Shown here in pieces: positions 23,149 through 62,692 of a stretch of 64,000 bases of DNA (the first letter of the stretch is position 1; each line of letters begins with the position of its first letter). The notes below the pieces were generated by a model, which ran no database searches, was not told the DNA's origin, and was given only the letters and a program-made list of their open reading frames with translations. Source of the DNA: Craspedostauros australis (lineage: Eukaryota; Bacillariophyta; Bacillariophyceae; Mastogloiales; Achnanthaceae); NCBI GenBank assembly GCA_026770025.1, contig JAMXDE010000047.1, forward strand, positions 372,001 to 436,000, read 5' to 3'. The translations under genes were made by a program, and so were the position numbers.

Positions 23149-23676
23149 TCATTCAGGCTCATTTCGCCGCCTTGGAAGAACATTCCAACAAGAGCGAATG
23201 TGGATGGAGAAGAGATGAGAATGACATGTTCGAGACCGTCCCAAGCCTCTCAGACATGATCCTTGGTGCTGCGCTTGCGATTGTGATCGCGATTGTGGCT
23301 GTGCTTGACAGGGGGATTGGGATGGTACATTCTGCGATGGACCGCCGATCTTCGCGGCGCCCTTCTCTGCCATCGTAGCTGTTGGTGATGTGCCGAGGGT
23401 GTCCTTCAGAATGGACTGGATGATCTTGTGGTCTTCCAGTACCCCCGTTGTGGCCGTTGCAATGGCGCAACTGACGACTTGTGTTGACAGCGCCTCGTGG
23501 GCATATGGTGATATGCCAAGGAAGGCATCGCCTCCCTTCTGGCTCTTTCCTCCTCCAATCGTACTCCAATCGTACACCTCATCATACTGGAGGAGTACGC
23601 GTGAGTCAGCGAGTGAGTGAATGAGTGAATGAGAGAAGAAGGAAGGACGGGAGGAAGGAAGGAAGGAAGGCGGCAC
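23149..23676 (-). other. Conserved open segment downstream of sulfotransferase copy 1
   Basis: Open for about 175 codons with the segment GGDAFLGISPYAHEALSTQV, also present in the other arm at 43119-43448. Between arms most base differences in this frame change the amino acid (for example H to Y, S to G, K to R, T to I, G to D, V to A), and one run of C differs in length, breaking the C-termini apart. This argues against strong coding constraint. It may be a 3' UTR or a decayed exon. Confidence 0.3.
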
Positions 23677-23718
23677 TCTGCATCCAAGAATACGTCATCA
23701 TACTCGTATCAAAGACCA

Positions 23719-25056: not shown

Positions 25057-25692
25057 CTGATGCCAACAGAGCTGGGCCTGCGTCTCGACTTGATTCACTC
25101 AATGCATGAACGTGGGCAGAGGCATGGAGACAAACAGAGATGAACGGAGTTGTTTTCAGATTGAAGATGAGCGAGATGAGCGAGATGGCCATGATGCTGA
25201 TGGTCATGGTGGTGGCGATGATGATCACGGTCGTAGCCGCATTTGATCCAGAGCCGACACCGTTGTTGCGTGCAGAATGACCGTGGATCCAACAATTCTG
25301 TCAACAAATCGTGATTGAATGGATCACAAGACTCATCACGTTTTCGATCATCGCTTCGAGTATCCCGAGAGACCCGGATGTTGATTCCACATCCCAATTT
25401 TTGGCGCAAACGGAACCAACCACGACAAAAAAAAACAGACCAAACATCACGAAAGAAGCGCGCGGAGCGACCGTTGTGAAGTGTGTGCACTGTCGCATTG
25501 TTCGATGTCAAACGAGAACTGATGCATCGACGGAGCAAGCGCGTCTTCAAATCCTCGGGGAAACATTCCCAAGCGACACAGATTCCAAAGCGAAACCAGA
25601 GGAGAGGGAGGAGACTGTACTCTCTTGCATCTCGTTCCCAGAGAAGCATTGCAACAATCACAATCCGCATTGAACTATAGAAGGTGGCCAAG
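25057..25692. other. Upstream region of sulfotransferase copy 1 and of the Cys/His-rich protein gene
   Basis: Divergent spacer. The first 280 bp belong to the duplicated arm and contain a frame encoding MTISIMAISLISLIFNLK (minus strand) that is also present in the other arm; it could be a 5' exon or upstream ORF. The remainder is unique and holds the promoter of the gene starting at 25693. Confidence 0.45.
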
Positions 25693-40807: not shown

Positions 40808-41388
40808 TCTTTTTGCTGTCGTCGACGTCGTTGAATTTCCTGGTGCGTGTTTGGTACCACACGAATGAGAGACGGAAGTGAGTACAAAGGAATTCGTTCC
40901 CTTGATTCAATCGTGTGAGTGGGTTGGGATGGGAATGGAACAAAGAGCCACAGGCCGATCGCTTCTCGCCTTGGCCGTTGTCTTCGTTCTTGATTTGCAC
41001 ATCAAATCGCAACGTGGAACGATGGAACGGGAAAATTGTGCACACCTCGCACAACGATCTCTTGCACATTGAGATCGGGATGACGGCGCTTCTGACAAAC
41101 GACTTGTGGTGCCATACAGATGATGGTCTCCTTTGTGCGCTCTGGTCTGTTCGTGTTGTACCCACACTCATGCTCGTTCTCATCGTCGTACCTTCCATTG
41201 CTATTTGTGGCAACAAGGGTGCACCCCCAGATTTTGGTTGTGGTCAAACGCGAGTCTTCGTTTGATGCGTTGTTGATTTGGTGCGTTGTTGGCTTGATGC
41301 GTTGTTGGCTTGATGTGTTGTCCGAAGATGACGTCAGGCCACATCAAGACAAAGGAGTATCGAGTCACGGACATGATTAATGAATCTG
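40808..41388. other. Spacer, no gene seen
   Basis: 580 bp between the Mpv17 start and the inner edge of the right duplication arm. A repeat of the decamer TTGATGCGTTGTTG occurs three times at 41269-41310. No coding frame supported. Confidence 0.55.
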
Positions 41389-43904
41389 AGTCTTGTGATC
41401 TGTTCAATCACGATCAGTTGACGGAATTGTTGGATCCACAGTCATTCTGTCCCCAACAACCGTGTCAGCTACGGATCAAATGCGGCTACGACCGTGATCA
41501 TCATCATCACCACCATGACCATCAGCATCATGGCCATCTCGCTCATCTCGCTCATCTTCAATCTGAAAACAACTCCGTTCATCTCTGTTTGTCTCCATGC
41601 CTCTGCCCACGTTCATGCATTGAGTGAATCAAGTCGAGACGCAGGCCCAGCTCTGTTGGCATCAGATGTTCGCAAGGCGATTGCCATCTGCGAATCATGG
41701 GACGGTAGACACCAACAATGCTCAAGTTGAAGTTGAAGCAAGGGGCAACTCCAGGGCAGACACCAACACTGACATGAACACTGACATGGGCACTGGCAAT
41801 GCCTCAACTACAGCATTCACAGCGTTCACAGCATTCACAGCATGCATAAGATGTCCTCACATCAATCACAGGCTGTGGAGTCTCCTCTTCCTCATCCAGT
41901 CCCTCATGCTGCTCTTCGGATGGATCCTCCCTCAGCTCCATCAGGTCAGCCAGGCCAGTTACGCCAGTTACGCCACCTTCATGACCACTCCATCTACTCA
42001 ATTCGTTGGCGATCAACAGTCTCAGTCGCAAGCGCAATCACAATCACAATCAGATCCAATCAACTCCCATGCAGATCTGTCTCTGCCCCCACCTCCACAG
42101 ATCGCAGACGAGGACGTGTGCGAACTGGCAAAGCACAACTTCACAGCCGCCAGCGGCCTCTTCTGCATCGTCACAGGGATGGAACACTCGGGGACCACCA
42201 TCATGGTGCAGTTCCTCACATCGCCACCCAACCTATTCGGTGGCTTGGAGTGCGGACTGCTCACCATGCCAACACCCGCAGAATTCAACACCTCCGTGCC
42301 ATTCTACGACTGGATGGGACGCACCACACACTTCGGCCTCACGCCGGAAATCAGGGATGAGATCCTGCTGTCCGCCTCATGTCCAGCGCAGATGTATCAG
42401 CGCATCCGTCAGCACTCCACCTTCTTCGGCCAGTCGCCGCATCCTTCGCAGCAGACCAGCTGGATCGTGGACAAGACACCGCGGTACATTCGCATGCTGG
42501 ACGAGGTGATGAGCATGACACCCGGTGTTCCCGTCATCGTGACGCGCAAGAACGCCCTGGATCAGATCCGGTCCATCGTGAAGCACATGGACACGAACGA
42601 CTTCTTCAAGGACATGTCGCCGAAGAAGAAGCGGAGGCGTGCCAGGGTAGCGGTCGAACGAGCGAGGGTGAGCTTGAAGCGTGCGATGGACCGTCATGGA
42701 TCATCCGGGAGGATCCTGATCGTGAACGCGACGGAGCTGTACAGCAATCCGGATGTGGTGATGAGTGGCGTGTTTGACTTCCTGCGATTGCATTGGAAGA
42801 CTGAATACCTCAGCATGGATGCTTTGAATGTGAAGCGTCAGATGGTGGGCATCAACAACAACTTGACTTCATTCGATCGCAACGCTTTGCAGAACAAGCA
42901 CATCACACAGAAGGTGGAAGTTGGAAGGGCGGCAGTTGAGGTTGGTGAGGTTGATGAGAAAGGCCATGGTGGTAAGGGAATCAGGGCTCATCCATGATGA
43001 TCTTTGATACGAGTATCAGGACTTACTCTTAGATTCAGAGTGCCGCCTTCCTTCCGTATTTCCTTCTTCTCTCAGTCACTCGTTCACTCCCTCGCTGACT
43101 CTCGCGTACTACTCTAGTATGATGAGGTGTACGATTGGAGGAGGAAAGAGCCTGAAGGGAGGTGATGCCTTCCTTGGCATATCACCATATGCCTACGAGG
43201 CGCTGTCAACACAAGTCGTCGGCTGCGCCATTGCAACGGCCACAACGGGGGTACTGGAAGACCACAAGATCATCCAGTCCATTCTGAGGGACACCCTCGG
43301 CATATCACCAACAGCTACGATGGCAGAGAAGGACGCCGCGAAGATCGGCGGTCCATCGCAGAATGCACCATCTCAATCCCCTGTCAAGCACAGTCACAAT
43401 CACAGCCACCATCACAAGCACAAGTGCAGCACCAAGGATCATGTCTGAGAGGCTTGGGACGGTCTCGAACATGTCATTCTCATCTCTTCTCCATCCACAT
43501 TCGCTCTTGTTGGGATGTTCTTCCAAGGCGACGAAATGAACATGAATGATGAACAGAGAATGAAGAATGCATGGAGAATGCATGGAGAATGCATGAAGCA
43601 GCCTCCCTGACGGATACATCACCGGCATGGGTGTGAAGGCCACCAAAACAGACAAGAGAGAGAGAGAGAGAGATGAAGGACCACATGCAAGGTTTCGCCC
43701 AAGATCTCGCTCAAGGTCTCGACATGTACATGATCTGCAGGGTAAGCGCACGCAACACTTGGAAAGGTGATCATGATTGGATGGAGAGGATTGCACGGAT
43801 GATAGAGTGAGCAGAGAGGGAACGGACTGAAGACAATCGCAGATCTTGAATCCGAGTAGAGTGCATCAGACTAAAGTGTTACCATTACTGTATCTCCAGA
43901 TTCG
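41389..43904 (+). repeat. Inverted duplication, right arm (sulfotransferase unit)
   Basis: Reverse-complement partner of 22803-25336. Similarity begins at GAGTCTTGTGATC (41389) and ends near GTTACCATTACTGTATCTCC (43880-43900). It covers the 5' region, the whole sulfotransferase and about 900 bp downstream, including the same motifs for the conserved downstream open segment. Gene-core differences are few, and flanks carry indels. Confidence 0.93.
41666..42997 (+). CDS. Membrane-anchored sulfotransferase, copy 2 (443 aa)
   Basis: Paralogue of the gene at 23719-25056 with the same layout: signal anchor at about residues 60-80, Gln/Ser-rich stem (QSQSQAQSQSQS, two residues shorter), PAPS loop VTGMEHSGTTIMVQFLTSPP, VDKTPRYIRMLDEV, and 3'-phosphate site VTRKNALDQIRSIVKH. 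The catalytic part differs from copy 1 by single residues such as LHW for LNW, while the cytosolic tail and stem carry most changes. Both copies keep intact frames and catalytic motifs, so both could be active. Start is the first ATG, 41666. The open frame extends 14 codons further up without ATG. Substrate not deducible. Confidence 0.8.
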   Translation: MFARRLPSANHGTVDTNNAQVEVEARGNSRADTNTDMNTDMGTGNASTTAFTAFTAFTACIRCPHINHRLWSLLFLIQSLMLLFGWILPQLHQVSQASYASYATFMTTPSTQFVGDQQSQSQAQSQSQSDPINSHADLSLPPPPQIADEDVCELAKHNFTAASGLFCIVTGMEHSGTTIMVQFLTSPPNLFGGLECGLLTMPTPAEFNTSVPFYDWMGRTTHFGLTPEIRDEILLSASCPAQMYQRIRQHSTFFGQSPHPSQQTSWIVDKTPRYIRMLDEVMSMTPGVPVIVTRKNALDQIRSIVKHMDTNDFFKDMSPKKKRRRARVAVERARVSLKRAMDRHGSSGRILIVNATELYSNPDVVMSGVFDFLRLHWKTEYLSMDALNVKRQMVGINNNLTSFDRNALQNKHITQKVEVGRAAVEVGEVDEKGHGGKGIRAHP

Positions 43905-44048: not shown

Positions 44049-47000
44049 CTACGCTTCCTGCGTGCAGGTGGATGCACCCTCATCAAACTCACCGTCGTCG
44101 TGGATGATATCTTGCGAAGCATTGGCGGTTGTCTCCACGCGTGCACCAGTAGCTCCACCGACAACTTGATCTTCGTTCGTGATCTCCTGGACGTACGTAC
44201 GCACCATATCCATACCCTTGACGGCCCATTCCTTTCGATTCTTGGTGGCGTAGCTCAAGCATTCCCCGCCAGCAACGCCGAACACCTGGTACTTGTCCAT
44301 CTCTCTTGCCAGAGGGATTACGTACTCGTCAAAGAAAGTAAGTTCGGCCTCATACCACCCAGTGGAAGGATCGACGGGATCTCTCCCCATCTCGTACGCC
44401 AAGTACATCTCTTCAAATAGGCGCCGGTTCCATTTCTGATACACGTGCCAGTCTGTTGTTATGGTCGTTGCCATTGTGGGACGTCGATGGGATGCAGCGA
44501 GCGATAGTCGTGCCGAAGGCAAAAAGCAAGTCGCAGAAGTGTAGCACGTGTCGTGGCGAGCAAAATGAGGCCGGAGTCATGCAGATGACGCGAGAGAATG
44601 GAGAAGAGCAAGATCGCCGGTGAGTTGCATCGCGATTCATTCTGCACTGCTGGTATCATATTTGCTGCTCATTGCAAACCGGGCTCATACAAGCAGTGAT
44701 CGATGCCACGACTTCACGCCGCACAATGTGCAAGTATGGCAGACAGCGTACTTACGTTGCATGGTGTGCAAAATGTTCGATGCTTGCATAATCTGTTCCA
44801 TCATGAGATTGGCACGGAGCTCAGGGATCATCACGTGCAATAACCCATCGACGGAATCCCCGCGTTTCTTGACAACGTTGCTGTCGCCAACGCCACCATT
44901 GACATCGTCGTTGCATCCGCCGTCGTTTGCACTGTCCAATGTGCGAGCATTCGGACGGCATTCAAAATTACCATGTTGGTCTTGGAACACTTCTTTCTTG
45001 CTCGGGCCAGCAGTGTCCCACTGGTGATCCCTGGCCTCCTTCAATTTGTCGTTGTAGATGTCAGTGGACATGATGCAGACCGTCACGATTTGTCGGAGTT
45101 TCGTCATATCTGCCGGTGTTGCGAAGAGAACATTGCGGAGATCGTCGAAGGTGTCTTCGAGGAGCATCTCCCATGCTACATCCAGCGCATGCTTCTTCGC
45201 GATGTCTTTGTAGTCGTACTTGGATGCCAGGTGGTGATTCTCTTTCACCAGCACGGAATTTGGGACGCCTGGATGAGCAATGCCGTACACCAAAGTTGCG
45301 AATATCACGCCGAACTGAGTCAGCGGGTTCGTCAGGCACACTCTATCGTTCAAAGTCTCCGCAGGCTGGTCGAGGATCTTGGAAAGGAACTTCGACGCCC
45401 CCATGGAGACGCTGCACGATCGAACGAAGTTGTGGAATGGGTTCGTTGATTTGTGCGCGTATGCAATCTGCTCCACGTACAGTCGTAGCTGCTTCACGAC
45501 GGCAGCATCAATCATATTGCCCGGGTGATGCGTCGATTGTTGCTTTGCCAATTTCTTGGAGCGAGAAGGCGAGGCCCGTTTCGATTCAGATGACTGTCTC
45601 CGGTGCGTGGGCTGTGAGATCGTCGCACTAAATTGTGCGGATGTATCGAGAGGATTAATCCCGTTCTCCGTGTCTAAAGCAGGAGGGTTCATTGCGGCCG
45701 CGATACGGCGGAGGTACCGCTTGAGCAAATCCGTTTGCCAGTCAATGAGCCTGCTAATGTCGACGTCGGCGCTGCTGGCGAAGATGCCACCACGTGCGCT
45801 ATCATTCCGTTCGCTCAACGACTGACGCCGTGTGCTGAACTCGGATTTGCCAGAGGTGGCGGAAATGCGAGGAGGTAGCGACGGAGCTGTCACATTGAGG
45901 AACTCCACATGTTTTGGTGTGAGGTTCAACCAATACTGCGGAGACATTGTTGTGGTCAAGCCAGGGCATGGGCATGGGATCGTGCATGTAAGATTTACGC
46001 AAAGCGCACGAATGCCAATCAGGCCAGCACAACAAGTGCGATGGCATCACGGCGTGGAACAAGCAGAGTTGTTGGGTGCGCACAGAATACGTATGTGTGA
46101 TGGTGTGAGGGTACGAGGATGGCACGAGCATTCATGAAAAGACCATCGGGGCACTTGGAATCGAAGCCTGGCGCTGCATACTCGTGTACACATGGGCCAA
46201 ATCATTGCGCAGTTCACGCGCGAGACATATCAGTACGTACCGTTTGCACTTCGCCGAGACCCTTTGCTTGAACTTTGTCCTCTCGGCTATCAAGCCAGCT
46301 TCCCTTCTTGGCGGCAAAGATCAAATCTGCAGTCGATTGGGATATCTGGATGCGTCCACGTCGGCTCGTGCTCTCCATGCGCGATGCCGTGTTCATCGTA
46401 TCTCCAAAGAGTTGGAATCGTGATTTCTCGCCCGACAGCACCCCGCCGATGACCGGGCCGCTGTGGATACCGATGCGCAAAGAGAGGGTGCTGGTGTCGG
46501 GTCCAAGCACTGTTTCCAGTTTCTTCGAAAGGGTGTACATGTTGAAGAGGATATCTTGAGCGAATTTGCCCATCCGGACGGCGTGGTCCGCCTGAGGGTC
46601 AGGAAGGCCAGTGCAGGCGACGTAGCAATCGCCGATGGTCTCCACCTTGAAGACATGCCGTCGCTTGGCAATACGATCGAATCGTCTGTACAAAGTTTGC
46701 AGCAACGTGAACACCATGCCAGGCTCTCGTTGGGAACTCCAGGCGGTGAAACCGACGATGTCAGCAAAGAGCACCGAAGTATCGGGGAAGAAATCGGCGA
46801 TTGGTTGATCGAGGAGAAAGCTCTGCCCGGCCATTTCCAATTCGGCGTCGTTTCCTTGCTTCAGCGTGACGATGTTGCGCAACTGATCGAGAGGCTTGAA
46901 CAGCACCGAGTTGCGGCGGGGCATGGGCGCGGCTGGTCGATTCGAAAGCTGCAATGATGGATCGTCGATGGTTGGAGCGACGAACGATGACGCGGTTTGC

Positions 47001-49226
47001 GGATTCCTTGACGATGCGAATAATCGATCTTGCACGCTGCTCGGGAACAGCGACGAAACGATGGCATTGGATCGCAATGCAATCTTCATTATCCTTGTTT
47101 GACGTTTCTGCACAGTGCAATCATAGATTTGAAACAAGAGGATTGCAAAGAGGAAGACAGCGCCCACGACCATCGACGAATGCAATGGTTGAATCGTGAT
47201 GTACTCGTCTTCCACGGTCTTGCTGGGGTAGACCCGCAACGTGAATGGGCATTCGGCGTAATCCATGGTCACTCCAATCGTAGAAAATGCGTCTGTAGTT
47301 GACGATGAGCTGCCCAATACATACGCTGTCTCCATGGACGCTCCGTACCTCTGGTCATGCAGGTCGCCCGGGCCAAGGGAAGCTGCTGTCGGCCCGTCCA
47401 AGTTCAAGGTGTGCGCCTTTCCATGTCCATCTTCGATGACGCAAACGAAGCCGACGTCCTCAGGCGGCAGGATGCCGGACAGCAGTATTGACCAATCGAC
47501 GAAGGCGATTAGAACGGCCACCACTTTTCGGTCGTCTTTCTGTGTGTGATGATCGTCAAAGATCGGATAGTACATCAGGCTGATCGCCTTGCTTTCGTCA
47601 CGCCCATTTGATGTCGCTTGGGAACCAGCGCCGTCGATGATGGCATGGACGAGAGTGTTGCCAACGTCTTTCTGACCGGCTCCGTTGCCATCGATAATAC
47701 TGGAAAGGCTGGCTGTCCCGGCTTCGACCGATCGCAGCAGGTCGTCAACGAATAACTCATCAGATGCCAAGTTGTAATTGATCAGGGGATGCGCCAGCGG
47801 GTGTGCCTGCCACAGGGGATAGTGTGGAGCTGGCTCAGTCTCCACAAGCCTCTCAACAGGAGTTGTTTCAGAGCCATCTTCGTTTGGTTGAGGATCTGCC
47901 GCTTTCCAAATCCAGTCATAAATGCCGTCTTGATACGAGGCAGGATCGAAATCATCCAAGGTGATACCCATTCTCCTTTGTGCGTCTGTGAGTTGCTGCC
48001 GCTCAGCCTCTCGCGTTTCGAGGCCCCAATTGAGAGAATCAAGTATCCATCCGCGGTTGTCGACGGCGTATGACTCCCACTGCGTTCGTTGTGCAGCAAG
48101 CGGAACCGTGACGATTCCATGCGAGCCTGATTGCCTCAGCGCGGAAGTCGCGTGAAGGTGAAAGTCAGGTAGTGTGACGTTCTGTTTGAAAATGAGGACA
48201 AGGGAAGGCAGCCGATGGGGAGAGAAGACGATGAGTGCATCCACATCAGGCATGTACCATCAAGTGAAAGCATGAAATGGGCCAATGCCACCGACGGCAT
48301 GAAGAGGGTTACACGCCCAAGCATTGGCACGCACGGTTTTGCAGTGCGGTAGAATAGGAAACGCAAATACAAGCGCATGGAGTGGAACGGATGATGGCAG
48401 TTGCAAGTTAGAGATTGTGAGGTTGTGACGTTGAAACGCGTTGGATCGTGACGAGCCGGAATGAAATCTGATGGCATGTATCGTGTACGACATTCCGCAC
48501 CAAGAATTGTACCACCCAGGTGTGAAACTGATCGCAGCATCAGGGGCCCTGGCGAGAAATAAGTCAGTCACTGACGTTGACACGAATGCGCATGCCGCCA
48601 CCTGTCATGGAACGTACCGGCCAGACGGAACCCGTGGCTTTGGCATGAGACGTGAATTGAGACGACAACGAATCGATGGCACCGATTTGGTGTTCGAAAT
48701 GTATTTGGAACGACTGGATGATCATGTTGGAGCGGTCATCGACGTTGGTCTCGAACTGATCTCGCTCGTCCTGTTCGATGCGATGATGCACCAGCCAGCC
48801 GAGGCAGATGGTGAGGCAGAGCAGAGCGAGCATGAAGATGAGCTTGAGCCATCGCAGGCGCTTGATGGATCTGGTGTCGATGAGCTGGTTGGTGACATCC
48901 ACATCGGTCTCGCTGCCATGCTGACTGCTGTCGCCGGACAGCAAGCTCGCTCGCACGAACTGCGTTGAAGAATTCAAACCTCGAAGGACGTGGGACACAT
49001 CCCACAACCGTCTGTGCGACTGGTCTTGACCGAAGGCTGCAGTGGCTGCTGTGGCGTCGGAGTTTCCGCAGCCGTTTAAAGCGCGGCTGCTCCTCGTCTT
49101 CCTCATGGAGTGATCATCGTCGAGGTCCTTCAGGAAGGAGCAGCTGCTGCCGCTGGCTTCTTCATCGTCCATGGATTCGATCGAGTGTTCTGCCGTTGGC
49201 GGGGACTCCTCCTGTCGGAACTTCAT
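44049..49226 (-). CDS. Receptor-type nucleotide cyclase with CHASE-like ectodomain and degenerate phosphodiesterase domain, four exons, 1377 aa
   Basis: Exons: 49226-48618, 48181-46241, 45935-44756, 44452-44049. Introns start GTACGT, GTACGT, GTAAGT and end AAACAG, CCGCAG, AACAACAG; phases 0, 0, 1. The joins restore family sequence (GEVQT-YWLNL and HTMQ-H-WHVYQKW). Order: cytosolic tail; TM1 127-147; CHASE-like ectodomain to about 535 (NVTLPDFHLHATSALRQ); TM2 538-558; cyclase domain about 670-850 with both metal Asp (FADIVGFT, ETIGDCY), the Glu of KVETIGD typical of guanylate cyclases, Gln in RFQLFGD where those usually have Cys, and NTASRMES; PDE domain about 985-1350. In the PDE domain the usual H-N-x-x-H is HNFVR, the H-D-x-D-H is YGIAH and the final S-D is SN, so the metal ligands are gone. 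Cyclase-PDE fusions are known in diatoms. It likely senses an outside ligand and makes cGMP or cAMP. Confidence 0.9.
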
Positions 49227-51177: not shown

Positions 51178-52300
51178 AGTGGATGTGGAATGTTAAAAGA
51201 TGGAGGAGCGAGATGCTATCCATCTCACGTTTGAAGATGAAATGAGGGAAGGGCCACACTGGTATGATATGGTGGTGTGCTGGAGTGGTGTCGACTGCGT
51301 CGTCAAGCAGTCCATCAATGGCACTGGTGGTGGCAATGGTAACAGCAGTGGTGATGGAAATGGCAGTGGTATTGGTATTGCACAGTCTTCAGCAGGCAAC
51401 GAATGCAATTCGGTGGCTGTGTACTCCAGTATTCGCATCTGGTACGCCATCCAGGATATTGCCAAAGAGGACAGCACCAGTAGCAGCGGTGACCAAATGA
51501 ACACAATGGAACAAGGTTGCATCCTGCAGCAACACTTTGGCAACAGCACCTACTGCCTCACTGGCAACTACAGTAACGATATCAAGCGTGACACCACCAG
51601 ATGCTGCTTCATCATCTTCCGCAATGCCTTGTCCTTCTCCAAGCCTGCTGCCAGAATGGATGGCAAGAATGTCGCTTTGAAGGCGTCATCCAAGGCCGAG
51701 CGCATCCAGCAACAAATGCGACAGCAGATCGACGATGCCAAGATCCCCACACGCACCACAAGGCCCATCATCGATCGACTCATCGACAAGGCCGATCATT
51801 TCTTCTAGTTGGGGATCTACTTCCACAATCCCTTTGGGCGATGTACGAAGGCGACGATGGCCACCAACCGCACCCGCAGCCGCAATCGCAATCGCAATGG
51901 AAGCACCGGCGCAGATAAGGCCGCCGTCCTGACCGTCTGTGGTGATGCGGCGCACGCCATGCCACCATTTATTGGACAGGGCACCAATCAGGCCATCCAA
52001 GACGCCCACTGTCTGGCCAACGCCATTCAGCAGCATACCATTCAGTGCAATGGACAAGCCAATGGCAGGAACAGCCTCGAAGACATCCTACAGACAGAAT
52101 ACAAGGACAAGCGATGATCCACCATCGCGTCCACCACAACCATCACGGGCATCACGGCCAAGGCTGGTCTGCTGGGGTACATGGAGACCTCATCGGGGCC
52201 GTTGGCCAAGTTTCGGGATGTGGTCGTCTTCACCATGGACAAGACGGGCGTTGCGAAGAAGATCTTGTTGGATGCCGCAGTGCCGAGGATATGAGAATGT
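51178..52300 (+). pseudogene. FAD-dependent monooxygenase relic, unit A (lacks N-terminus)
   Basis: Encodes the middle and C-terminal parts of a PHBH/UbiH-like flavin monooxygenase: RDAIHLTFEDEMREGP, CCFIIFRNALSF, then CGDAAHAMPPFIGQGTNQAI, the FAD-pyrophosphate/GD motif. The N-terminal GxGxxG domain is absent. Lesions: TAA at 51194-51196 where unit B has CAA; TAG at 51806-51808 where unit C has GAG (ELGIYFHNPF); and TGA at 52115-52117 where family alignment suggests Trp, shared with unit C. A stretch GTGGGNGNSSGDGNGSG is expanded here. Position 51719, which is a stop in units B and C, is still an Arg codon. Confidence 0.85.
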
Positions 52301-52625
52301 GTGGAGCGGTGCGGAATCGCGATGTGGTGCTGATAGGTTCTGTGGACGCTTTCGCTTGCTGTTAACAGACATTCCAGACTTCTCACCAACCACAGCGCGC
52401 AACCACAATCACCCAGCCATCTCCCTTGTCCCATCCTACTCATACCAGAACACATTCGCATGCACCAGATTATCAATATTGTCTTCGTGAGCTGTTCTAA
52501 TTATTCGACGACCAGAGTTCTCGAAGGCCATCCAGGATCTCATCAATCGTCGATGTGCCTTTCTTTTCCTCATCGCAAGCACAAACATCATCAACTTGGA
52601 CGAGTTGATCTGCTCTCTTGTCATC

Positions 52626-53963
52626 TCATGTCCACTTCAACATCTCACTGCCCTGCAACAGAATGTTGAAAGTCTCGCTCATGGGATCCATTGTACCCAT
52701 TAGACCCTGTTCAAATAGTGTACCCAATAGACCCATTGCATCCGTTGGACCATGACATTTGCTTGTTCTCATCAGCATCTCTCCAAACAGGGCCAGTGGC
52801 CGTGACCATGTTGGAAGGGAACCCAGCACTGCTCTCACCTTGTTGCGATGGTTTCGCCGCAAGATATGTTCAACAAGCGCATTGTACGAATGGACATGTT
52901 TGCCAGGCGGGCGTGGACAAATGTAGAGATGGGTGAGCCGGGCATTCTGCTCCAAGGCTTGCTCAAGTGCTTCCATTTGTGTCAAGAGGGTCTCAGGCGG
53001 AACTTCAAACATGTCGGGATCCAAGAAGTCCCAGTATGCGAGATATGACAAGCCCTTGTTTCCCAGGAGCGATACCAAAGCGTCGAACCTTGCCATCTGC
53101 TCTTGTCGCGATGACCCAATCCCATTACAGGAAACGCTGAGCTCCTTCAGGTGTGATGTATCTGAAAGGAGTTTGATGATCTGGTCGATTTCTTGTCCGT
53201 CGTAGTCCTTACAGAACATGATGTTGAGCTTGTTGATGCGCTTGTTTGACTGGAATAGCTTTGCCAAGCTATCGCAAGTGATATGAGTGCATGAGAGGGA
53301 TATTCCGGTGACGCTGCAATTGTTTGGAGACAGCCATCTGCACAAATCAGCGCCCCCATTGGCGAGCTTACAGTTACTAAACTTAACCCACTTCGAGTTT
53401 TGGGAGATGTTGAACATGAGCTTATCGCAATCAACAAGATCACATGAGTACAACTTCACACGATGTGTCACAAGAGGGATATCGTGGAGTTGCTTCATCT
53501 CCACGAAGTATTGAGTCAAGCGGATGCCGTCGGCCCATGGAGATTCGGGTGGGTGTTTGGCAGCCAATCGAAGTAAGAAGCGAATCACTTGCTTGACTTC
53601 TTCTCCAAACTGGCCAGAGCTACCGAATTCCAGATACAGGGATCGAATGCGCATCCGCCTGCAGCCACTGTACCACCAATTGCTCAGTAGAACATGAGGT
53701 GATAAAGCAAGGTGCTTGAGCTGCCGCTGCATCGATTTCAAGTCAGCAAAGGTGAATCCTGCTTCGATGGCCATGTCCCAGTATTCCATCCGCTTGGGTG
53801 TGACACTGTAGCAGTCGATCTGCTTTACTGGTGGGTAGTGCACATTGAACACGGTCTTTGGTGGCAGCTCTTTGCCCTGGAGTTGTTTCCAGAAAGTCTT
53901 GAAGTCTGGATCGTGATCGCGGTTGGTATTGGTGGTGGCGACGGCATCCATGTTGAAATCCAT
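52626..53963 (-). CDS. Leucine-rich-repeat (RNI-like) protein, unit A, 445 aa
   Basis: Intact frame from ATG 53961-53963. It has a conserved entry (KQIDCYSVTPKRMEYWDMAI) followed by LRR units of the ribonuclease-inhibitor kind: VKLYSCDLVDCDKLMFNI, VKFSNCKLANGGADLCRWL, SVTGISLSCTHITCDSLAKL, INKLNIMFCKDYDGQEIDQI, LKELSVSCNGIGSSRQEQ. A C-terminal cap follows: VHSYNALVEHILRRNHRNKV then LPTWSRPLALFGEML. No signal peptide or membrane segment, so probably cytosolic. LRR folds bind proteins or nucleic acids; the partner is unknown. It is one of three paralogues in the array, differing mostly in a patch at about residues 95-115 and around 135-150, and in the Met-rich tail (GLLGTLFEQGLMGTMDPM) that is longer here. 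Confidence 0.82.
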   Translation of the reverse strand: MDFNMDAVATTNTNRDHDPDFKTFWKQLQGKELPPKTVFNVHYPPVKQIDCYSVTPKRMEYWDMAIEAGFTFADLKSMQRQLKHLALSPHVLLSNWWYSGCRRMRIRSLYLEFGSSGQFGEEVKQVIRFLLRLAAKHPPESPWADGIRLTQYFVEMKQLHDIPLVTHRVKLYSCDLVDCDKLMFNISQNSKWVKFSNCKLANGGADLCRWLSPNNCSVTGISLSCTHITCDSLAKLFQSNKRINKLNIMFCKDYDGQEIDQIIKLLSDTSHLKELSVSCNGIGSSRQEQMARFDALVSLLGNKGLSYLAYWDFLDPDMFEVPPETLLTQMEALEQALEQNARLTHLYICPRPPGKHVHSYNALVEHILRRNHRNKVRAVLGSLPTWSRPLALFGEMLMRTSKCHGPTDAMGLLGTLFEQGLMGTMDPMSETFNILLQGSEMLKWT

Positions 53964-54949
53964 CTTGCTACGTGTTGTCGATGCTGGTTATTGTGGGGGC
54001 TGTCGATAGTGTTGGTTGCACAGCAGGCGGAGCAGGCAGGGTATGTAGTCCCAAATCAGTTGCGCTCGGATGGCGATTGTGAGCTCATCCGCTCAAGGTT
54101 GCTGTCCTCCATTTCATGATCCTGTGCATTGATCACGAAGGGATCTATCGTCAGTCAACACGCCTGCATGGACATACGCAGTTCCACCAAGGTGTGTGGC
54201 GTGGTGTGGTGTAGTACAGCCACATCATGATCCGAAGCTGGCTAGCTCGCTCGCTTGCACGATACGACCTTGGATGGTGCCCAACTTGGCCATACTTTGC
54301 AGTTGTGCTTCATCATGTGATACCATAGGTCGTGTAATATGAGTAGGCACATCCCTTTGTGATGGTCTTGGGGGAGTCAACCATTATGCCATACGAATGC
54401 ATGCTATGTGCTTCGGCAGTTGCATGTGATGGAACGACTGCGGTGAGCAGATCCACGATGTGAGAAATCCACGATTCTCGTGTTTTGTTGCGAGGATGAC
54501 GATGACGATGTTGATGACACCACTCGTGTTTCAATTCGCCACAAACGTATCCAGGACTCATCTCGCCTCACCCAATCATTGCGAACTCTGTGGCGATGAC
54601 GATGATGATGGCCATGGTGGTGCTGCAGACATCGCCGTCGAATGCTGATGCAGATCGTCACAACTGCAACGCTCACATGATGATCACGGTCACCATCAAG
54701 TGTCTATCCACAGAGTACGTATACCAACACTCTCTCGTTTCTCTCTGTTTCTTGAGAGAGACTTCGAACAATGCCGGCTGGTTGACTTGGTTCCTCACTC
54801 ATCAATCGCCCAACCACAGAGACGGCCGCAACCAGAGGAATCACTACATTGGCAACAATGACACCAACGACACCAACGACGTGATTGATGCATCAATAGA
54901 GGGTGATTGGTGCCATCTACATCGCGTGCATGGTGATGGCAACGAACTC
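53964..54949. other. Array spacer, unit A to unit B
   Basis: Shared with the other spacers of the array. It holds the LRR promoter/5' UTR and the upstream region of the unit B relic. Short frames only. The copy has the landmark blocks listed under the array. Confidence 0.55.
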
Positions 54950-56035
54950 ACTGTCATCCCCGTCATCCCCGTCATCCTCACTCCAACGCAGAAGCGAAGC
55001 AGCAGAAGCAACAGGAATGGGAATGAGAACCACCAATCAATACGGAAGAATGCCGTGATCGGCGGCGGCATCGCTGGTCTCTCCTTGGCGCATGCCTTCG
55101 AGAACAACAACGGCGACGATGCACACAACATTGATGTGATATGCTTCGATGTGACATGCTTCGATGCGAGACCAGAATTGGACGTCGTCGCAGGTGCGGG
55201 TGTGCGGTTCAACGGTGGAATGGCGGTGCTCAAGCAGATCTCTCTGTCCCTGCAGCGTGCGGTGGTCGATGCCGCGCTGCCGTTGACGACCGTGTGATCC
55301 AAGACCACCAACTGGGTCTCATCCAACGAGGAGTTCCAGCTGCTGCAGTTCAATCTCAGACAGATGATCATGGATGCGGGCGGCGACACGACGAAGGCGC
55401 CGATCCAGGAGGATGGCAAGGTCATGGCGTACCATACTCCATCATGCGAGAAACATTGCAGGAGGTGCTGCAGGAGGAGCTGAAGACGACGCCTGTGCAT
55501 CTTGGCAAGGTGATGAATGTGGAATGTCAAAAGACGAAGGCGCGAGATGCCATCCATCTCACATTTCAGGACGGGATGAGGGAAGGGCCGTACGATATGG
55601 TGGAGGGCTGTGATGGCGTCAACAGCGTTGTGAAGCAGTACATCAACGGCGATGCGCGGTCGCCATCAGACAATCAACGCAATTCGCCAGATGTGTACTC
55701 TGGTATCCGCATCCGGTACGCCATCCAGGATGTCGCCAAAGAGGACAGCAACAGTGGCATCAGCAGCGTCGACGGAACGAACACAATGGCACAAGATTCC
55801 ATCTTGCAGCAACACTTTGGCAACGGCGCCTGCTGCCTCACTGACAACTACGGTAACGGTATCAATCGTGATACCACCCGATGCTGCTTCATCATCTTCC
55901 GCAACGCCTTGCCCTTCCCCAAGCCCACCGCCAGTGAGGATGATGAGAACGTCGCTTGGAAGGCACCATCCAAGGCCGAGCGCATCCAGCAACAGATGTG
56001 ACAGCAGATCGATGATGCCACCAACCACAACACGC
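54950..56035 (+). pseudogene. FAD-dependent monooxygenase relic, unit B (N-terminus present, C-terminus lost)
   Basis: Starts with the dinucleotide-binding motif NAVIGGGIAGLSLAHAFE and GAGVRFNGGMAVLKQIS. The frame breaks near 55290 and again near 55440, after which YSIMRETLQEVLQEELK, DMVEGCDGVNSVVKQYI and CCFIIFRNALPFPK follow. A TGA at 55999-56001 replaces the Arg codon kept in unit A. Directly after it the sequence jumps to the spacer that in unit A follows the C-terminal domain, so the GDAAH region is deleted. It is the only unit with both the Rossmann start and the middle domain. Confidence 0.85.
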
Positions 56036-56266
56036 AATCACAATCACCCAGCCATCTCCCTTGTTCCATCCTACTCATAGTAGTACAACAACACATTCAC
56101 ATGCACCAGAATATCAATACTGTCTTCATTAGACGTTCTAAGTACTCCACGAGCAGAGTATTCCAAAGCTATGTCGGATCGCATCAATCATCGATGTGTC
56201 TTTCTTTTCCACATCGCAAGCAGAAGCACCATCAACTTGGACGAGCCGATCCGCTCTCTTGTCATC

Positions 56267-57586
56267 TCATGTCCGCTTCAACATCTCACTGCCCTGCAAC
56301 AGAAGATGAAAAGTCTCGCTCATGGGATCCATGGGACCCATTGCATGCATTGTACCACGACGTTTGTTTGTTCTCGTCAGCATCTCCCCAAACAGGGCCA
56401 GTGGCCGCGACCATGTTGGAAGGGAACACAGAACTGCTCTCACCTTGTTGCGATGATTTCGCCGCAAGATACGTTCAACAAGCGCATTGTATGAATGGGC
56501 ATGTTCGCCAGACGGGCGTGGATCAATGTGGAGATGGGTGAGTTGGGTAGTCTCCTCCAAGGCTTGCTCAAGTGCCTCCATTTGTGCCGAGGGGGTTTCA
56601 GGCCAAACTCCAAATATGGCAGCATTCCAGAACTCCAAGTATGTGAGAGATGACAAGCTCTTGTTTCCCAGGAGCGATATCAAAATGTCGAACCATGTAT
56701 CTTGTTCTTGTCGCGATAACCCGTTCCAAATACCAGAAACCGTGAGCTCCTTCAGGTGTGATGCATCTGAAAGGAGTTTGATGATCTGGTCGATTTCTTG
56801 TCGCGAGTAGGTTCGTTGTTGGTTGTAGTCCCCACAGAAACTGATGTTGAGCTTGTTGATGCGCTTGTTTGACTGGAATAGCTTTGCCAAGGTATCACAA
56901 GTGACACGAGTGCCTAAAAATGATACTTCGGTGACACTGCAATTGTTTGGAGATAGCCATCTGCACAAATCAGCGCCCCCATTGGCGAGCTTACAATTAT
57001 TAAACACAACGGATTTGGAGTTTTGGGAGATGTTGAACATGAGCTTGTCGCAATCAACAAGATCACATGAATACAAATGCACACGATGTGTCACAAGAGG
57101 GATATCGTGGAGCTGCTTCATCTTCGTGAAGCATTGAGTCAAGTAGATGCCTTTGTCGAATGGAGATTTGAGTGGGTGTTGGGCAGCCAATCGAAGTAAG
57201 AAGCGAATCGCTTGCTTGTCTTCTTCTCCGAATTGTTCAATAGTGCCGAATTTCAGATACAGGGATCGAATGCCCATCTGCCCGCATTCATTGCGAAACG
57301 AACCGCTCAGTAGAACATGAGGTGATAAAGCAACGTGTTTGTAGCACCGCTGCATCGATTCCAAGTCAGCAAAGGTGAATCCCACTTCGATGGCCATGTT
57401 CCAGTGTTCCATCCGCCTGGGTGTGACACTGTAACAGTCGATCTGCTCTGCTCGTGGGTACCACGGAGTGAACACGGTCTTCGGGACCCACCATTTCTGA
57501 TGAAGCCGTTTCCAGAAAGTCTTGAAGTCCGGATCATGGTCACTGTTGGCATTGATGTTGGCGTCACCATGCATGTTGAAAGCCAT
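56267..57586 (-). CDS. Leucine-rich-repeat (RNI-like) protein, unit B, 439 aa
   Basis: Paralogue of the unit A and C genes with the same order: entry EQIDCYSVTPRRMEHWNMAI, LRR units (VHLYSCDLVDCDKLMFNI, VVFNNCKLANGGADLCRWL, SVTEVSFLGTRVTCDTLAKL, INKLNISFCGDYNQQRTYSR) and the cap VHSYNALVERILRRNHRNKV, LPTWSRPLALFGEML. Relative to unit A it has a five-residue insertion after GDYNQQ and a shorter tail. The segment LLSGSFRNECGQMG (about 95-110) is unlike units A and C while blocks on both sides are identical. Intact from ATG 57584-57586. No transmembrane or signal sequence seen. Confidence 0.82.
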   Translation of the reverse strand: MAFNMHGDANINANSDHDPDFKTFWKRLHQKWWVPKTVFTPWYPRAEQIDCYSVTPRRMEHWNMAIEVGFTFADLESMQRCYKHVALSPHVLLSGSFRNECGQMGIRSLYLKFGTIEQFGEEDKQAIRFLLRLAAQHPLKSPFDKGIYLTQCFTKMKQLHDIPLVTHRVHLYSCDLVDCDKLMFNISQNSKSVVFNNCKLANGGADLCRWLSPNNCSVTEVSFLGTRVTCDTLAKLFQSNKRINKLNISFCGDYNQQRTYSRQEIDQIIKLLSDASHLKELTVSGIWNGLSRQEQDTWFDILISLLGNKSLSSLTYLEFWNAAIFGVWPETPSAQMEALEQALEETTQLTHLHIDPRPSGEHAHSYNALVERILRRNHRNKVRAVLCSLPTWSRPLALFGEMLTRTNKRRGTMHAMGPMDPMSETFHLLLQGSEMLKRT

Positions 57587-58639
57587 CCTGCTATGTGTTG
57601 TCGATGCTGGTTATGGTGGGGACTGTCGATAGTGTTGGTTGCACAGCAGCAGAGCAGGCAGAGTCTGTGGTCCCAAATCAGTTGCGGTTGGATGGAGATT
57701 ATGAGCTCATCTGCTCGAATTTGCTGTCTTCCATTTCATGATCCTGTGCATTCATCACGAAGGGATCTACCATCAGTCAACACGCCTTCATGGACTTGTG
57801 CAGTTCCACCAAGGTGTATGATGTGGCATGGTGCGTTGTGGTATGGTTCGGTGTGGTACGACTGTGGATGTTCACATCATGATCCGAAGCTGGCTGGCTC
57901 GCTCGCTCACACGATACGACCTTCGATGGTGCCCAACTTGGCCATGCTGTGCAGTTGTGCCTCTTCATGTGATACCATTGTTTGTGTAATATGAGTAGGC
58001 ACATCCCTCTGTGATGGTCTTGGGGGAGTCAACCATTATGCCATACGAATGCATACTATGTACTTCGGCAGTTGGATGTCATTGAACGACCGTAATGGGC
58101 GGATCCACAATGTGACGAATCCACCACGATGACTTCTTCGGTGGACATCAGAGGCGTTTCCCGCGTTTTGTTGGGAGGATGATGACGATGATGACGATGG
58201 TGACACCACTCGTGTTTCAATCGACAACAAACGTATCCAGGACTCATCTCGCCTCCCACAATTATTGCGAACTCTGTGGCGAACGAATCAACCATCAGTC
58301 TTCCCATCAACACGGAGCGTGTGCGAGAGGATTCGTTCTGCGGCGATGACGATGGCCATGGTGGTGCTTCTGCAGACATCGCTGCAGAATACTGATGCAG
58401 ATCGTCACAACCGCAACGCTCACATGATGATCACCGTTGCCATCAAGCGTCTATCCACAGAGTACGCATACCAACACACACACTCTCTCTCTCTCGCTTC
58501 TCTCTGCTTCTTGAGAGTGACTTCGAACAATGCCGGCTGGTTGATTTGGTTCCTCACTCAATGATCGCCCAACCACAGAGACAGCCACAACCAGAAGAAT
58601 CACAGCAATGGCGGCAATGACAAAAATGACACCAACGAC
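57587..58639. other. Array spacer, unit B to unit C
   Basis: Same landmark blocks as the other spacers, with added CT microsatellite (58482-58503) not present in the A-B spacer. Nothing coding is supported. Confidence 0.55.
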
Positions 58640-59524
58640 GTGATTGATGCATCAAAAGAGGATGATTGGTGTCATCTACATTGCGTGCATGGTGCATGGT
58701 GGTGGCAACGAACTCACTGCCATCCCCGTCGTCCCCGTTATCCTCACTCCAACGCAGAAGCGAAGCAGTAGCAGAAGCAGCAATGGGAGTGGGAGTGGGA
58801 ACCACCAACCAATATGGAAGATTGCCGTGATCGACGGTGGCATCGCCGGTCTCTTCTTGGCGCATGCTTTCGAGAACAACAGCAATACCGACACCAACGA
58901 CCACAACGTCGCTTGGAAGGAATCATCCGAGGCCGAGCGTATCCAGCAACAGATGTGACAGCAGATCGATGGTGCCAAGATCCCTATGCACACCATCAGG
59001 CCCATCATCGATCGACTCATCGACAAGGCCGATAGTTCCTTCGAGTTGGGGATCTACTTCCACAATCCCTTTGCGCGGCAGTCCAAGGTGATGGTGGCCA
59101 CCAACACAAATCGCAACCGCAACCGCAATGGAAGCACCGGTGCAGACAAGGTCGCCATCCTGGCTGTCTGCGGTGATGCAGCGCATGCCATGCCACCGTT
59201 CCTTGGACAGGGCACCAATCAGGCCATCCAAGACGTCTACAGTCTGGCCAACGCCATTCGTCAATACACTATGCAGTACGATGGACAACTCAATGGTGGG
59301 ATCAGCCTCGAAGACGTCCTGCAGACAGAATACAATGACAAGCGATGATCCACCACCACGGACATCATGGACATCACGACCACCACAGCCAAGACCGGGC
59401 TGCTGGGATACCTGGAGGCCTCATTGGGACCGTTGACCAAGTTCCGGAATGTGTCCTTCTTCACCATGGACAAAACAGTCGTTGCGAAGAAGATCTTTCT
59501 GGATGCAGCCATTCCGAGGGTATG
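58640..59524 (+). pseudogene. FAD-dependent monooxygenase relic, unit C (middle deleted)
   Basis: Begins with IAVIDGGIAGLFLAHAFE, a decayed dinucleotide motif (GGG has become DGG), then jumps straight to NVAWKESSEAERIQQQM and TGA (58956-58958, shared with unit B). The middle domain of about 700 bp is missing. The C-terminal part is present: PIIDRLIDKADSSFELGIYF, CGDAAHAMPPFLGQGTNQAI, and TGA at 59346-59348 shared with unit A, then TKFRNVSFFTMDKTVVAKKI. So this unit carries a lesion in common with each of the other two. Confidence 0.85.
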
Positions 59525-60002
59525 AGAATGTGTGTCGCGGTGTGAAATCGCGATGTGGTGCAGATAGGTTCTATGGACGGCTTTCGCTTGTTGTTGATGG
59601 ACCAGCCATACTCGAACAATCTAGACATTCCATGCTTCTCATCAACCACAACACACAATCGCAATCATAATCACAATCTCAAGCGAATTCCTCCCAATCA
59701 ATCAATAAATCAATCAACCAACCATCTCCCTTTCTCTGTGCCACGAGCACGAGTACACATGCATCGAGGACGCCCATGCTCGACCAATGCATCATAGTTA
59801 TTCGGAGTAAGGCTGCACAGTATCCTAATGTATGCGTGACATTGAACGTACTCGTACTATCTCAATCATTGGTGCACTCCGCCTTGCTTTGCAAACTGTC
59901 GAGTGGAACCTTCGTTGCTTTGACGAGTGTGGCCAGTCCGTTATCACTTCCGATGCTCTGGCAGAAGCGCTTTGATCTATTCCAGGCAGCATCTCGTCTT
60001 TG

Positions 60003-61364
60003 CTAGTTCTTCTCGTGGGCAATGGAATCTTTCTCAAGTTGGACGAGCCGATCCGCTCTCTTGTCGTCCCATGCCCGCTTCAACATGTCACTGCCCTGCA
60101 ACAGAAGATGGAAAGTCTCGTTCGTGGGATTGTATGTACCCAATATGTTCCACCGTCTGCTTGTCCTAATCAGCATCTCCCCAAACAGGGCCAGTGGCCG
60201 CGACCATGTTGGAAGGGAGCACAGCACTGCTCTCACCTTGTTGCGATGATTTCGCCGCAAGATACGTTCAACAAGCGCATTGTATGAATGGACATGTTCA
60301 TCAGGCAGGCGTGGTCGAATGTGGAGATAGGTGAGTTGGGTAGTCTGCTCCAAGGCTTGCTGAAGTGCTTCCGTTTGTGCTGAGAGGGTCTCAGGCGGAA
60401 CCTCAAACATGTCGGGCTTCCAGAACTCCAAGTATGTGAGAGATGACAAGCTCTTGTTTCCCAGGAGTGATATCAATGCGTCGAACCATTTCATCTGCTC
60501 TGGCTCCGATGACCCAATCCAAATACCAGAAACCGTGAGCTCCTTCAGGTGCGATGCATCTGAAAGGAGGTGGATGATCCGGTCGATTTCTTGTGAGTGG
60601 ATGTGTTGGGTGCTGTTGTCCCGACAGATACTGATTTGGAGCTTGTTGATGCGCTTGTTTGACTGGAATAGCTTTGACAAGGTATCACAAGTGACGCGGG
60701 TGCTATAAAAGGATACTTCAGTGATACTGCAATTGTTTGGAGACAGCCATCTCCACAAATCAGCGCCCCCATTGGCGAGCTTACAGTTACTAAACATAAC
60801 CCACTTCGAGTTTTGGGAGATGTTGAACATGAGCTTGTCGCAATCAACAAGATCACATGAATCCAAATGCACACTATGTGTCACAAGAGGGATATCGTGG
60901 AGCTGCTTCATCTCCACGAAGCATTGAGGCAAGCAGATGCCTTTGCTGCATGAAGACTTGGGTGAATGTTCGGTAGCCAATCGAACCACGAAGCGAATCG
61001 CTTGCTTGTCTTCTTCTCCCAATTGGCCATCCCTGCCGAAGTTCAGATACAGGGATCCAATGCGCATCCGCCCGCAGCTCTGGAGCCACGAATCGCTCAG
61101 TAGAACATGAGGTGATAAAGCAATGTGGTTGTGCCGCCGCTTCATCGATTTCAAGTCAGAAAAGGTGAATCCTGCTTCGATGGCCATGTCCCAGTATTCC
61201 ATCCGCTTGGGTGTGACACTGTAGCAGTCGATCTGCTTTGCTGTTGAGCACTGCGCGTTGAACACGGTCTTCGATGACAGCTCTTTGCCATGGAGCTGTT
61301 TCCAGAATGCCTCGAAGTGAGGGTCATGGTTGGTGTTGGCGACATCATCCATGTTGCAGTTCAT
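60003..61364 (-). CDS. Leucine-rich-repeat (RNI-like) protein, unit C, 453 aa
   Basis: Third paralogue. Entry KQIDCYSVTPKRMEYWDMAI (identical to unit A over 20 residues), LRR units VHLDSCDLVDCDKLMFNI, VMFSNCKLANGGADLWRWL, SITEVSFYSTRVTCDTLSKL, INKLQISICRDNSTQHIHSQ, LKELTVSGIWIGSSEPEQMK, cap VHSYNALVERILRRNHRNKV and LPTWSRPLALFGEML. The C-terminus is longer by about 18 residues (DDKRADRLVQLEKDSIAHEK) because the stop used in A and B is bypassed. The patch at about 95-110 reads LLSDSWLQSCGRMR. The spacer after it is the array stub. Intact from ATG 61362-61364. Confidence 0.82.
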   Translation of the reverse strand: MNCNMDDVANTNHDPHFEAFWKQLHGKELSSKTVFNAQCSTAKQIDCYSVTPKRMEYWDMAIEAGFTFSDLKSMKRRHNHIALSPHVLLSDSWLQSCGRMRIGSLYLNFGRDGQLGEEDKQAIRFVVRLATEHSPKSSCSKGICLPQCFVEMKQLHDIPLVTHSVHLDSCDLVDCDKLMFNISQNSKWVMFSNCKLANGGADLWRWLSPNNCSITEVSFYSTRVTCDTLSKLFQSNKRINKLQISICRDNSTQHIHSQEIDRIIHLLSDASHLKELTVSGIWIGSSEPEQMKWFDALISLLGNKSLSSLTYLEFWKPDMFEVPPETLSAQTEALQQALEQTTQLTYLHIRPRLPDEHVHSYNALVERILRRNHRNKVRAVLCSLPTWSRPLALFGEMLIRTSRRWNILGTYNPTNETFHLLLQGSDMLKRAWDDKRADRLVQLEKDSIAHEKN

Positions 61365-62692
61365 CCGTTTCTTGTTGTCACTGTCGTCGCAGTTGTTACG
61401 GCTGATGCCGATTGTTGCTGATTATTGTTGATTGTGGCACAATCGTATGAGTAGAGCTGACAGAGCAGGCAGAGTATGTAGAGTAGGTGTGTGGTCCCAA
61501 ATCAGTTGCGCTTGGATGGCGATTGTGAGCTCATCTGCTCAAGCTTGCTGTCCTCCATTCCATGATCCGGTGCATTCATCACGAAGGGATCTACCATCAG
61601 TCAACACACCTTCATGGACTTGCGCAGTTCCACCACTGTGTACGGTATGGTGTGGTGTGGTGTGATACGACCGTGGACAGCCACATCATGATCCGAAGCT
61701 GGCTCGCTCGCTCACACGATACGACCTTTGATCGTGCCCAACTTGGCCACGTTGTGCGGTTGCGCCTCTCCATGTGATACCGTAGGTCGTGTAACATGAG
61801 TACATCCCTCCGTGATGGTCTTGGGGGAGTCAACTACGATACTATTACATTATTCCGATCGATACAGTTCTTCGGCAGTTGGATGTCATCGAACGACTGT
61901 AATGGGCAGATCCACGATGTGACGAGTCCACGATGCGAGGAATCCACCACGATGGCTTCTTCCGTGGACATCAGAGGCGTTTCTCGTGTTTTGTCGAGAT
62001 GATGATGGCGATGATGACGATGGTGACACCACTCGTGTTTCAATCGACAACAAACGTATCCAGGACTCATCTCGCCTCACTCGATCATTGCGAACTCTGT
62101 GGCGAATGAATCAACCATCAGGACCGTCCGGTACTTGGATTAGTCGTGGATAAATAAGACAATTTTCATTCGACTCAATAGACTACTTTAGCACCAGTTT
62201 CGTGGGTTCATGTTTCAATTCTGTGGACACACATTTCCATATTGATTATAACGGTCAACTCAAACCTATAACGTTCAGAGAGCAGGACAGGCCAGCCAAC
62301 ACGGAACGCTTGAGTGTCTTCCTGTCACCGTTCTGAATCAAACCCCCCGTTCTGAATCAGACAGCTCATTCTGGATTCAGAATCAGAACTTCTGAAGTTC
62401 TGAATCCGTTCTGACTCGATTATGTTGTCTGAATGCTCTTGCGGACGAGGGCCGGGTGGTTTACAAGATTGTCACCATTTTAAACATGACACATAACGTA
62501 TATTAACGCCTGTCAAACACAACAAGTTGGTAACACAACAACCATTTCTTTGTTGTTTGCTGTCGAGCGCTCACACGCACATCATCGATAGCTGCTCCAT
62601 CGTCGCTGTCGCTGTCGCTGGTACTGTTGCTGTTGCTGCACACTTGCAAGTCTTCACACATCATACCACGAGTACACCCTCTTCGATTCACA
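61365..62692. other. Array stub, then unique AT-rich region with palindromic repeats
   Basis: Up to about 62130 this is the fourth copy of the array spacer. After that it is unique and AT-rich, and at 62331-62415 the motif GTTCTGAATC recurs with its reverse complement (GATTCAGAATCAGAAC, AGTTCTGAATC), forming possible hairpins. This may be the left end of the Harbinger-type element. No additional gene is supported. Confidence 0.5.

Follow-up and report, generated by a model that had tools for sequence, protein, structure and literature searches.

A putative one-way receptor cyclase in the diatom Craspedostauros australis with a phosphodiesterase domain that has lost its metal ligands

The 64,000-nucleotide stretch of Craspedostauros australis DNA analysed here (contig JAMXDE010000047.1, positions 372,001 to 436,000; hereafter the window) carries on its minus strand, from position 49226 to 44049, a four-exon gene for a predicted receptor in which a nucleotidyl cyclase domain is followed by a class I phosphodiesterase (PDE) domain changed at all four of its metal ligands. 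We favour, at a probability of roughly two in three, the reading that this protein is a one-way receptor nucleotidyl cyclase with two transmembrane (TM) segments, a member of the diatom guanylyl cyclase (GC)/PDE fusion family whose pseudo-PDE persists in a structural or regulatory role. The cyclase half would make cyclic GMP (cGMP) or cyclic AMP (cAMP), and the PDE half, without metal ligands, would not hydrolyse it, leaving the output of the receptor one-way. The PDE fold itself would be retained within the cyclase dimer, and, more speculatively, Arg1022 and Lys1097 might take over the positive charge of the missing metals.

The metal ligands of class I PDEs are His, His, Asp and Asp. Alignment of the window protein with its paralogs places R1022, Y1067, G1068 and N1237 on these four primary ligand columns, in agreement with the claim of an earlier note on this DNA that each metal position it could align is changed. 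Motif I reads HNFVR (amino acids 1018-1022; 45420..45434, minus strand, as for all features of the gene), with the metal His replaced by Arg1022 and His1018, presumably the catalytic acid, kept. Motif II reads YGIAH (1067-1071; 45273..45287), where Tyr1067 stands for the metal His, Gly1068 for the metal Asp and Ala1070 for the next Asp, and motif III reads SNILH (1236-1240; 44766..44780), where Asn1237 stands for the metal Asp. Beyond the four ligands, D1070A is thus joined by E1097K: Lys1097 (45195..45197) occupies a column that holds Glu in 50/50 reference rows of the family, a position we take to be equivalent to Glu230 of PDE4. When solved PDEs are aligned to a profile that includes the window row, their H, H, D and D (two Protein Data Bank (PDB) chains shown) come to lie on the same four columns, the motif III piece of this match scoring 6.9 bits only. 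By sequence family the domain is a class I PDE (PF00233, over cut-off); the ligand set of an active class I PDE is missing from it. Because none of the four metal ligands is left, hydrolysis of cyclic nucleotide by the PDE half is not expected. No shifted His/Asp set was seen in the motif alignments, and the H-D-x-D-H motif is absent from every frame of the window, in a search that would miss a motif split by an intron. The sole look-alikes of the pattern are H-N-x-D-H at 14699 (plus strand) and 23297 (minus strand).

Class III cyclases rely on two metal Asp, an Asn and an Arg. The window domain (PF00211, 153.5 bits; amino acids 670-849 by Pfam and family alignment, 46244..46783) is of this class and has all of them, in D677 and D721, which we take to be the metal Asp pair, and in N800 and R804, presumably the other two. 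The family residue is present at each of the seven positions compared (D677, E717, D721, Q793, D797, N800 and R804), which upholds the description of an intact-looking cyclase in the earlier note. Guanylyl cyclases carry Glu/Cys as their substrate pair, the alternative pair being Lys-Asp. In the window protein the pair is Glu717-Gln793, and Glu-Gln is common to the paralog rows with letters at these positions; a mismatch at this pair in the paralog L043 is an exon boundary effect. With these residues in place, we predict that the cyclase half is active.

The state of the PDE ligands was then compared across the genome assembly (G000; 74.8 Mb, 90 contigs). A PDE family search gave 120 matches, hand-merged to 113 loci, which is a lower bound because one further motif match lies at C14:1455508. 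From these loci, at least 113 in number, 73 PDE rows including the window were aligned, and all four metal positions could be read in 56. H-H-D-D is found in 53 of the 56, the exceptions being the window (R-Y-G-N), L043 (R-H-G-H) and L014 (H-H-D-K). Two partly read rows also show losses: L036, with an intact motif I and with Asn and Lys in place of the two metal Asp, and L078, in which Arg and Gln replace the two metal His and Asn replaces a metal Asp, the second His of motif II being Arg as well. The ligand-losing rows are therefore the window and the four paralogs L043, L014, L036 and L078. The remaining 15 of the 17 partly read rows have no true ligand loss in the portions read; an apparent Asp-to-Lys change in L056 was set aside as an exon-joining artefact, motif III with its Asp being present in place at C25:368650. 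Counted per ligand over rows with a letter, without L056, the expected residue is seen in 57/59 (His), 70/72 (His), 69/72 (Asp) and 62/67 (Asp) cases. The 50 reference rows, from which the five ligand-losing rows are excluded by design, have 45/45, 50/50, 50/50 and 50/50; near copies and incomplete rows were removed before the trees and before conserved columns were counted.

A genome-wide search for motif III gave 104 exact matches versus none in a reversed control, and 98 of the 113 loci were matched among the 100 matches listed. The 15 non-matched loci include all five ligand-losing rows. L074, L006 and L067 keep the Asp and vary in adjoining letters, and the loci on C72 and C84 are intact in the alignment as L041 and L045. 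Two loci on C60 are PDEs of a different type; motif II of L002 retains H-D, and a pattern search of L001 did not find the PDE motifs. The locus at C1:1155001 has motifs I and II intact, with motif III not seen, and two loci on C81 are unread.

Ligand loss probably recurs within this family. In a tree of the cyclase domain (41 rows), a single clade of the window, L043, L014 and L036 was rejected (approximately unbiased test, p-AU 2e-7), and the supported branches force at least three changes; L078 enters the PDE tree only, so this test covers the four ligand-losing rows with cyclase data. L014 lies in a supported cyclase clade of ten, the other nine members being intact, and the supported clade that contains L036 has three members, of which the other two are intact. 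These placements make the losses in L014 and L036 independent of that in the window, provided that the two halves of each gene were inherited together. L014 (G000:C15:1068381-1072700) keeps all checked cyclase residues and has Lys for the Asp of PDE motif III. It thus joins an intact set of cyclase residues to a changed PDE ligand in a separate cyclase clade, and is a second candidate one-way cyclase. The window and L043 are joined in the PDE-domain tree, at 99/95 with 67 rows and all columns and at 83/82 with 48 rows and the three motifs masked, both being long branches there. A pairing of L043 with L051 instead was not rejected (p-AU 0.34), and the best BLAST partners are L051 for L043 and L040 for the window. 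In the cyclase domain, a clade of the window and L043 was not rejected (p-AU 0.59). The cyclase branch of L043 is long and is based on 141 residues.

The PDE half is also probably still under selection. The window keeps 53 of the 79 PDE columns that are conserved in at least 92% of the 50 reference rows and has lost 26, against a reference median of 99% kept and a minimum of 78% (L074). The rest of the fold, which the earlier note had called well kept, is therefore kept at these 53 columns and less completely than that wording implied. The 26 lost columns include those of the four ligands (hypergeometric p 0.010), a post hoc figure because the ligand loss itself drew attention to the gene. The fraction kept falls with the conservation of the columns, from 0.67 in the most conserved class through 0.56, 0.47 and 0.31 to 0.18 in the least conserved, and in the lower classes the window resembles intact paralogs with long branches. 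Neutral simulation up to a loss of 26 of the 79 columns required about 176 substitutions and introduced a mean of 5.1 stops, with 0/300 runs stop-free; all 26 losses were taken as neutral, and the model covers substitutions, with indels outside it. It is this absence of any stop-free run that argues for selection on the PDE half, and the pattern of lost ligands, intact cyclase residues and an open frame unlike neutral decay fits the earlier suggestion of a pseudoenzyme under constraint. The frame is open through all four exons even though the cyclase would remain complete if a stop followed its domain. Across the 36 rows with both domains, the end branch of the window is 5.6x the median in the PDE domain and 1.9x in the cyclase domain. 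GC content at third codon positions, compared by domain, was uninformative, and the paralogs were judged too distant for synonymous rates because PDE-exon identity is 37% at best. A search of prokaryote genomes and viral contigs found no relative. We infer, for this one genome, a PDE half freed from catalysis and yet selected to be made and folded.

Several observations weigh against this interpretation and should be set beside it. In a motif-masked PDE tree (55 rows), a clade of all five ligand-losing rows was not rejected (p-AU 0.72), and the tree holding them together scored 11.8 log units higher. Long branches may attract one another in the PDE domain, and we give the cyclase tree more weight because most of its branches are short; nonetheless, the conflict between the two trees stands, and the argument for recurrence assumes that both halves are inherited together. 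PDE branches that are long, or out of proportion to the cyclase branch, also occur without ligand loss: L049, whose ligands are intact, has a PDE end branch of 3.9x the median, and the PDE-to-cyclase branch ratio is 8.9 in L025 versus 5.3 in the window. With one third of the family-conserved PDE positions gone from the window, part of the PDE change may be relaxation. The evidence for constraint comes from a single genome. Finally, loss of PDE ligands is not always paired with an intact cyclase. In L036 (G000:C39:498032-502186) the first cyclase metal Asp is Glu, and this paralog, changed at both its PDE metal site and its cyclase metal Asp, is possibly a wholly dead receptor.

The long PDE branch and the 26 lost columns are also what would be expected if the PDE half were simply decaying, its constraint gone and its open frame a matter of luck or recency. 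We hold this to be quite unlikely, given that no neutral run reached such a loss free of stops, that exon 4 and every splice site are intact, and that conserved columns are still better kept than variable ones. A PDE that works through other metal ligands or by metal-free chemistry is very improbable: L043, with His for Asp and its motif II His kept, indicates that partial metal sites may exist in the family, but the window keeps 0/4 primary ligands and its motif alignments offer no displaced set. Least credible of all is an error of gene model or assembly that conceals a normal motif, for example in an alternative exon, since each of the three motifs sits well within an open exon of some length for which paralogs can be aligned and, forms split by an intron aside, H-D-x-D-H occurs in no frame of the window.

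More serious is a reading that grants the domain a different task, namely that the pseudo-PDE is a metal-free sensor of cyclic nucleotide (or GMP) that exerts feedback on the cyclase and has Arg1022 and Lys1097 in the place of the phosphate-holding metals. His1018 and much of the PDE fold are kept, and in 5/5 ligand-losing rows a primary ligand position has become basic, through Arg in the window, L043 and L078 and through Lys in L014 and L036. Lys or Arg accounts for five of the 13 replacements, for which a binomial test gives p 0.008 against an expected rate of 2/19 and p 0.034 against one of 15%. Furthermore, some degenerate EAL domains without metal ligands still bind cyclic di-GMP (c-di-GMP), according to excerpts of PMC7288161. 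Nonetheless, the Lys/Arg statistic is post hoc, the five rows were chosen for their losses and may not all be independent, and a change from His to Arg needs one base change. The enrichment is suggestive only, and on balance we regard a sensor as unlikely in the window protein. A broader proposal, that diatoms repeatedly turn the PDE half into a metal-free sensor in which Arg or Lys in place of His or Asp would bind the cyclic phosphate, so that the dead PDE would read local cGMP and gate the cyclase, is more doubtful still. The earlier note had raised both the one-way cyclase and the nucleotide-sensing module, and both are inferred; the one-way cyclase with a retained pseudo-PDE is the reading that we prefer.

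The gene model on which this rests was set from the sequence and has exons at 49226-48618, 48181-46241, 45935-44756 and 44452-44049, separated by introns of 436, 305 and 303 bases with GT..AG ends in 3/3. Splicing gives 1377 codons with a single stop at the end, just as the earlier note had described a four-exon gene with no broken frame. Exon 1 (48618..49226, amino acids 1-203; open reading frame, splice sites and hydropathy) holds the start codon, the N-terminus and the first hydrophobic segment, TM1, at about amino acids 124-147 (48786..48857; hydropathy only). Exon 2 (46241..48181, amino acids 204-850; splice sites, Pfam and hydropathy) holds the outer domain, the second TM segment and the cyclase. 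The outer domain, predicted by hydropathy between TM1 and TM2 (amino acids 148-534; 47189..48785), contains intron 1 and a third, weaker-placed hydropathy peak at about 422-443, and TM2 lies at about 535-560 (47111..47188; hydropathy only). Exon 3 (44756..45935; splice sites and PF00233) encodes a linker and the larger share of the PDE domain, matching PF00233 at 49.1 bits against a cut-off of 24.8. Exon 4 (44049..44452; open reading frame and splice sites) encodes the C-terminal part of the PDE fold, the tail and the stop, and had no Pfam match when scanned alone. By Pfam and paralog alignment, the PDE-like domain spans approximately amino acids 1004-1330 (44193..45476) and contains intron 3. 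The protein thus has the GC/PDE fusion layout of two TM segments (by hydropathy only), cyclase and then PDE in one chain. A Pfam scan of the outer domain gave no match; CHASE matches below threshold were seen in 2/7 paralogs scanned (L010, E 0.013; L013, E 0.11). An outer-domain profile had one match in the PDB, covering 29 residues within a flagellin domain (E 3e-5), which was set aside, and an NCBIfam scan gave a single match far under cut-off.

Paralogs of the same kind are present in the genome, the best long cyclase-exon matches having 39-46% identity and the best PDE-exon match 37%. The genome contains no recent copy of the window gene: the next match down is at 43% identity over 528 amino acids for the cyclase exon and at 37% for the PDE exon; shorter cyclase-only pieces match the cyclase exon at up to 68% identity. 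The cyclase/PDE family is very large in this genome, with about 113 PDE loci, and the cyclase rows read carry the Glu-Gln pair. The assembly also has a large set of silicon transporters, which mark it as a diatom genome: the family PF03842 is matched 88 times, with 32 matches above 760 bits and a few that have an internal stop. Close to the gene, an inverted repeat of about 2.5 kb and 93% identity (22799-25335 / 41387-43902) has one arm that stops roughly 150 bases away from the 3' end of the gene and contains a 457-codon frame that is sulfotransferase-like by eye. A direct-repeat array occupies 51390-62121; its pieces reach 2.1 kb, and identity among the longer ones is 82-86%.

Class I PDEs such as PDE4, PDE8 and others in the PDB belong to the same sequence family as the window PDE, which differs from them in the change of all four metal ligands. 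In GC-A and GC-B a kinase-fold domain precedes the cyclase, and GGDEF-EAL proteins are bacterial, concern c-di-GMP and have folds unrelated to those of the cyclase and the PDE. Like GC-A and GC-B, the window protein is a membrane cyclase with a dead-enzyme domain, there a pseudokinase able to tune the cyclase (excerpts of PMC9672810); it differs in that the inactive domain is a PDE and follows the cyclase, with a regulatory role that is hypothetical. The GGDEF-EAL proteins CC3396, FimX and LapD, in which a domain is degenerate, likewise fuse the making and breaking of a second messenger, and their dead half may turn sensor, as far as excerpts of PMC7288161 go; nucleotide binding is reported there, whereas for the window protein it is hypothetical.

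The closest known systems are the GC/PDE fusions of Seminavis robusta, presented in excerpts of PMC4726125 as putative bifunctional two-TM proteins and, to the knowledge of those authors, confined to diatoms. In the same species the response to sex pheromone involves eight GC/PDE fusion genes, all of them upregulated (excerpts of PMC8027222). The window protein shares with diatom fusions, as these excerpts portray them, a small inner N-terminus, an outer stretch between two TM segments and an inner cyclase followed by a PDE. It differs in that the fusions are described as putatively making and breaking cGMP, whereas its PDE has no metal ligand. Titles and abstract openings, with partial coverage of the literature, described no cyclase fusion in which a class I PDE domain is dead. 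The family is thus known, and the dead-PDE form appears to be new to it. GC/PDE fusions as a whole raise the question of why synthesis and breakdown should be joined in a single chain, and natural members with one live half would offer a ready experiment on the role of the PDE half. If the recurrence of ligand loss holds, part of the diversity of this family would arise by switching off one of its two enzymes.

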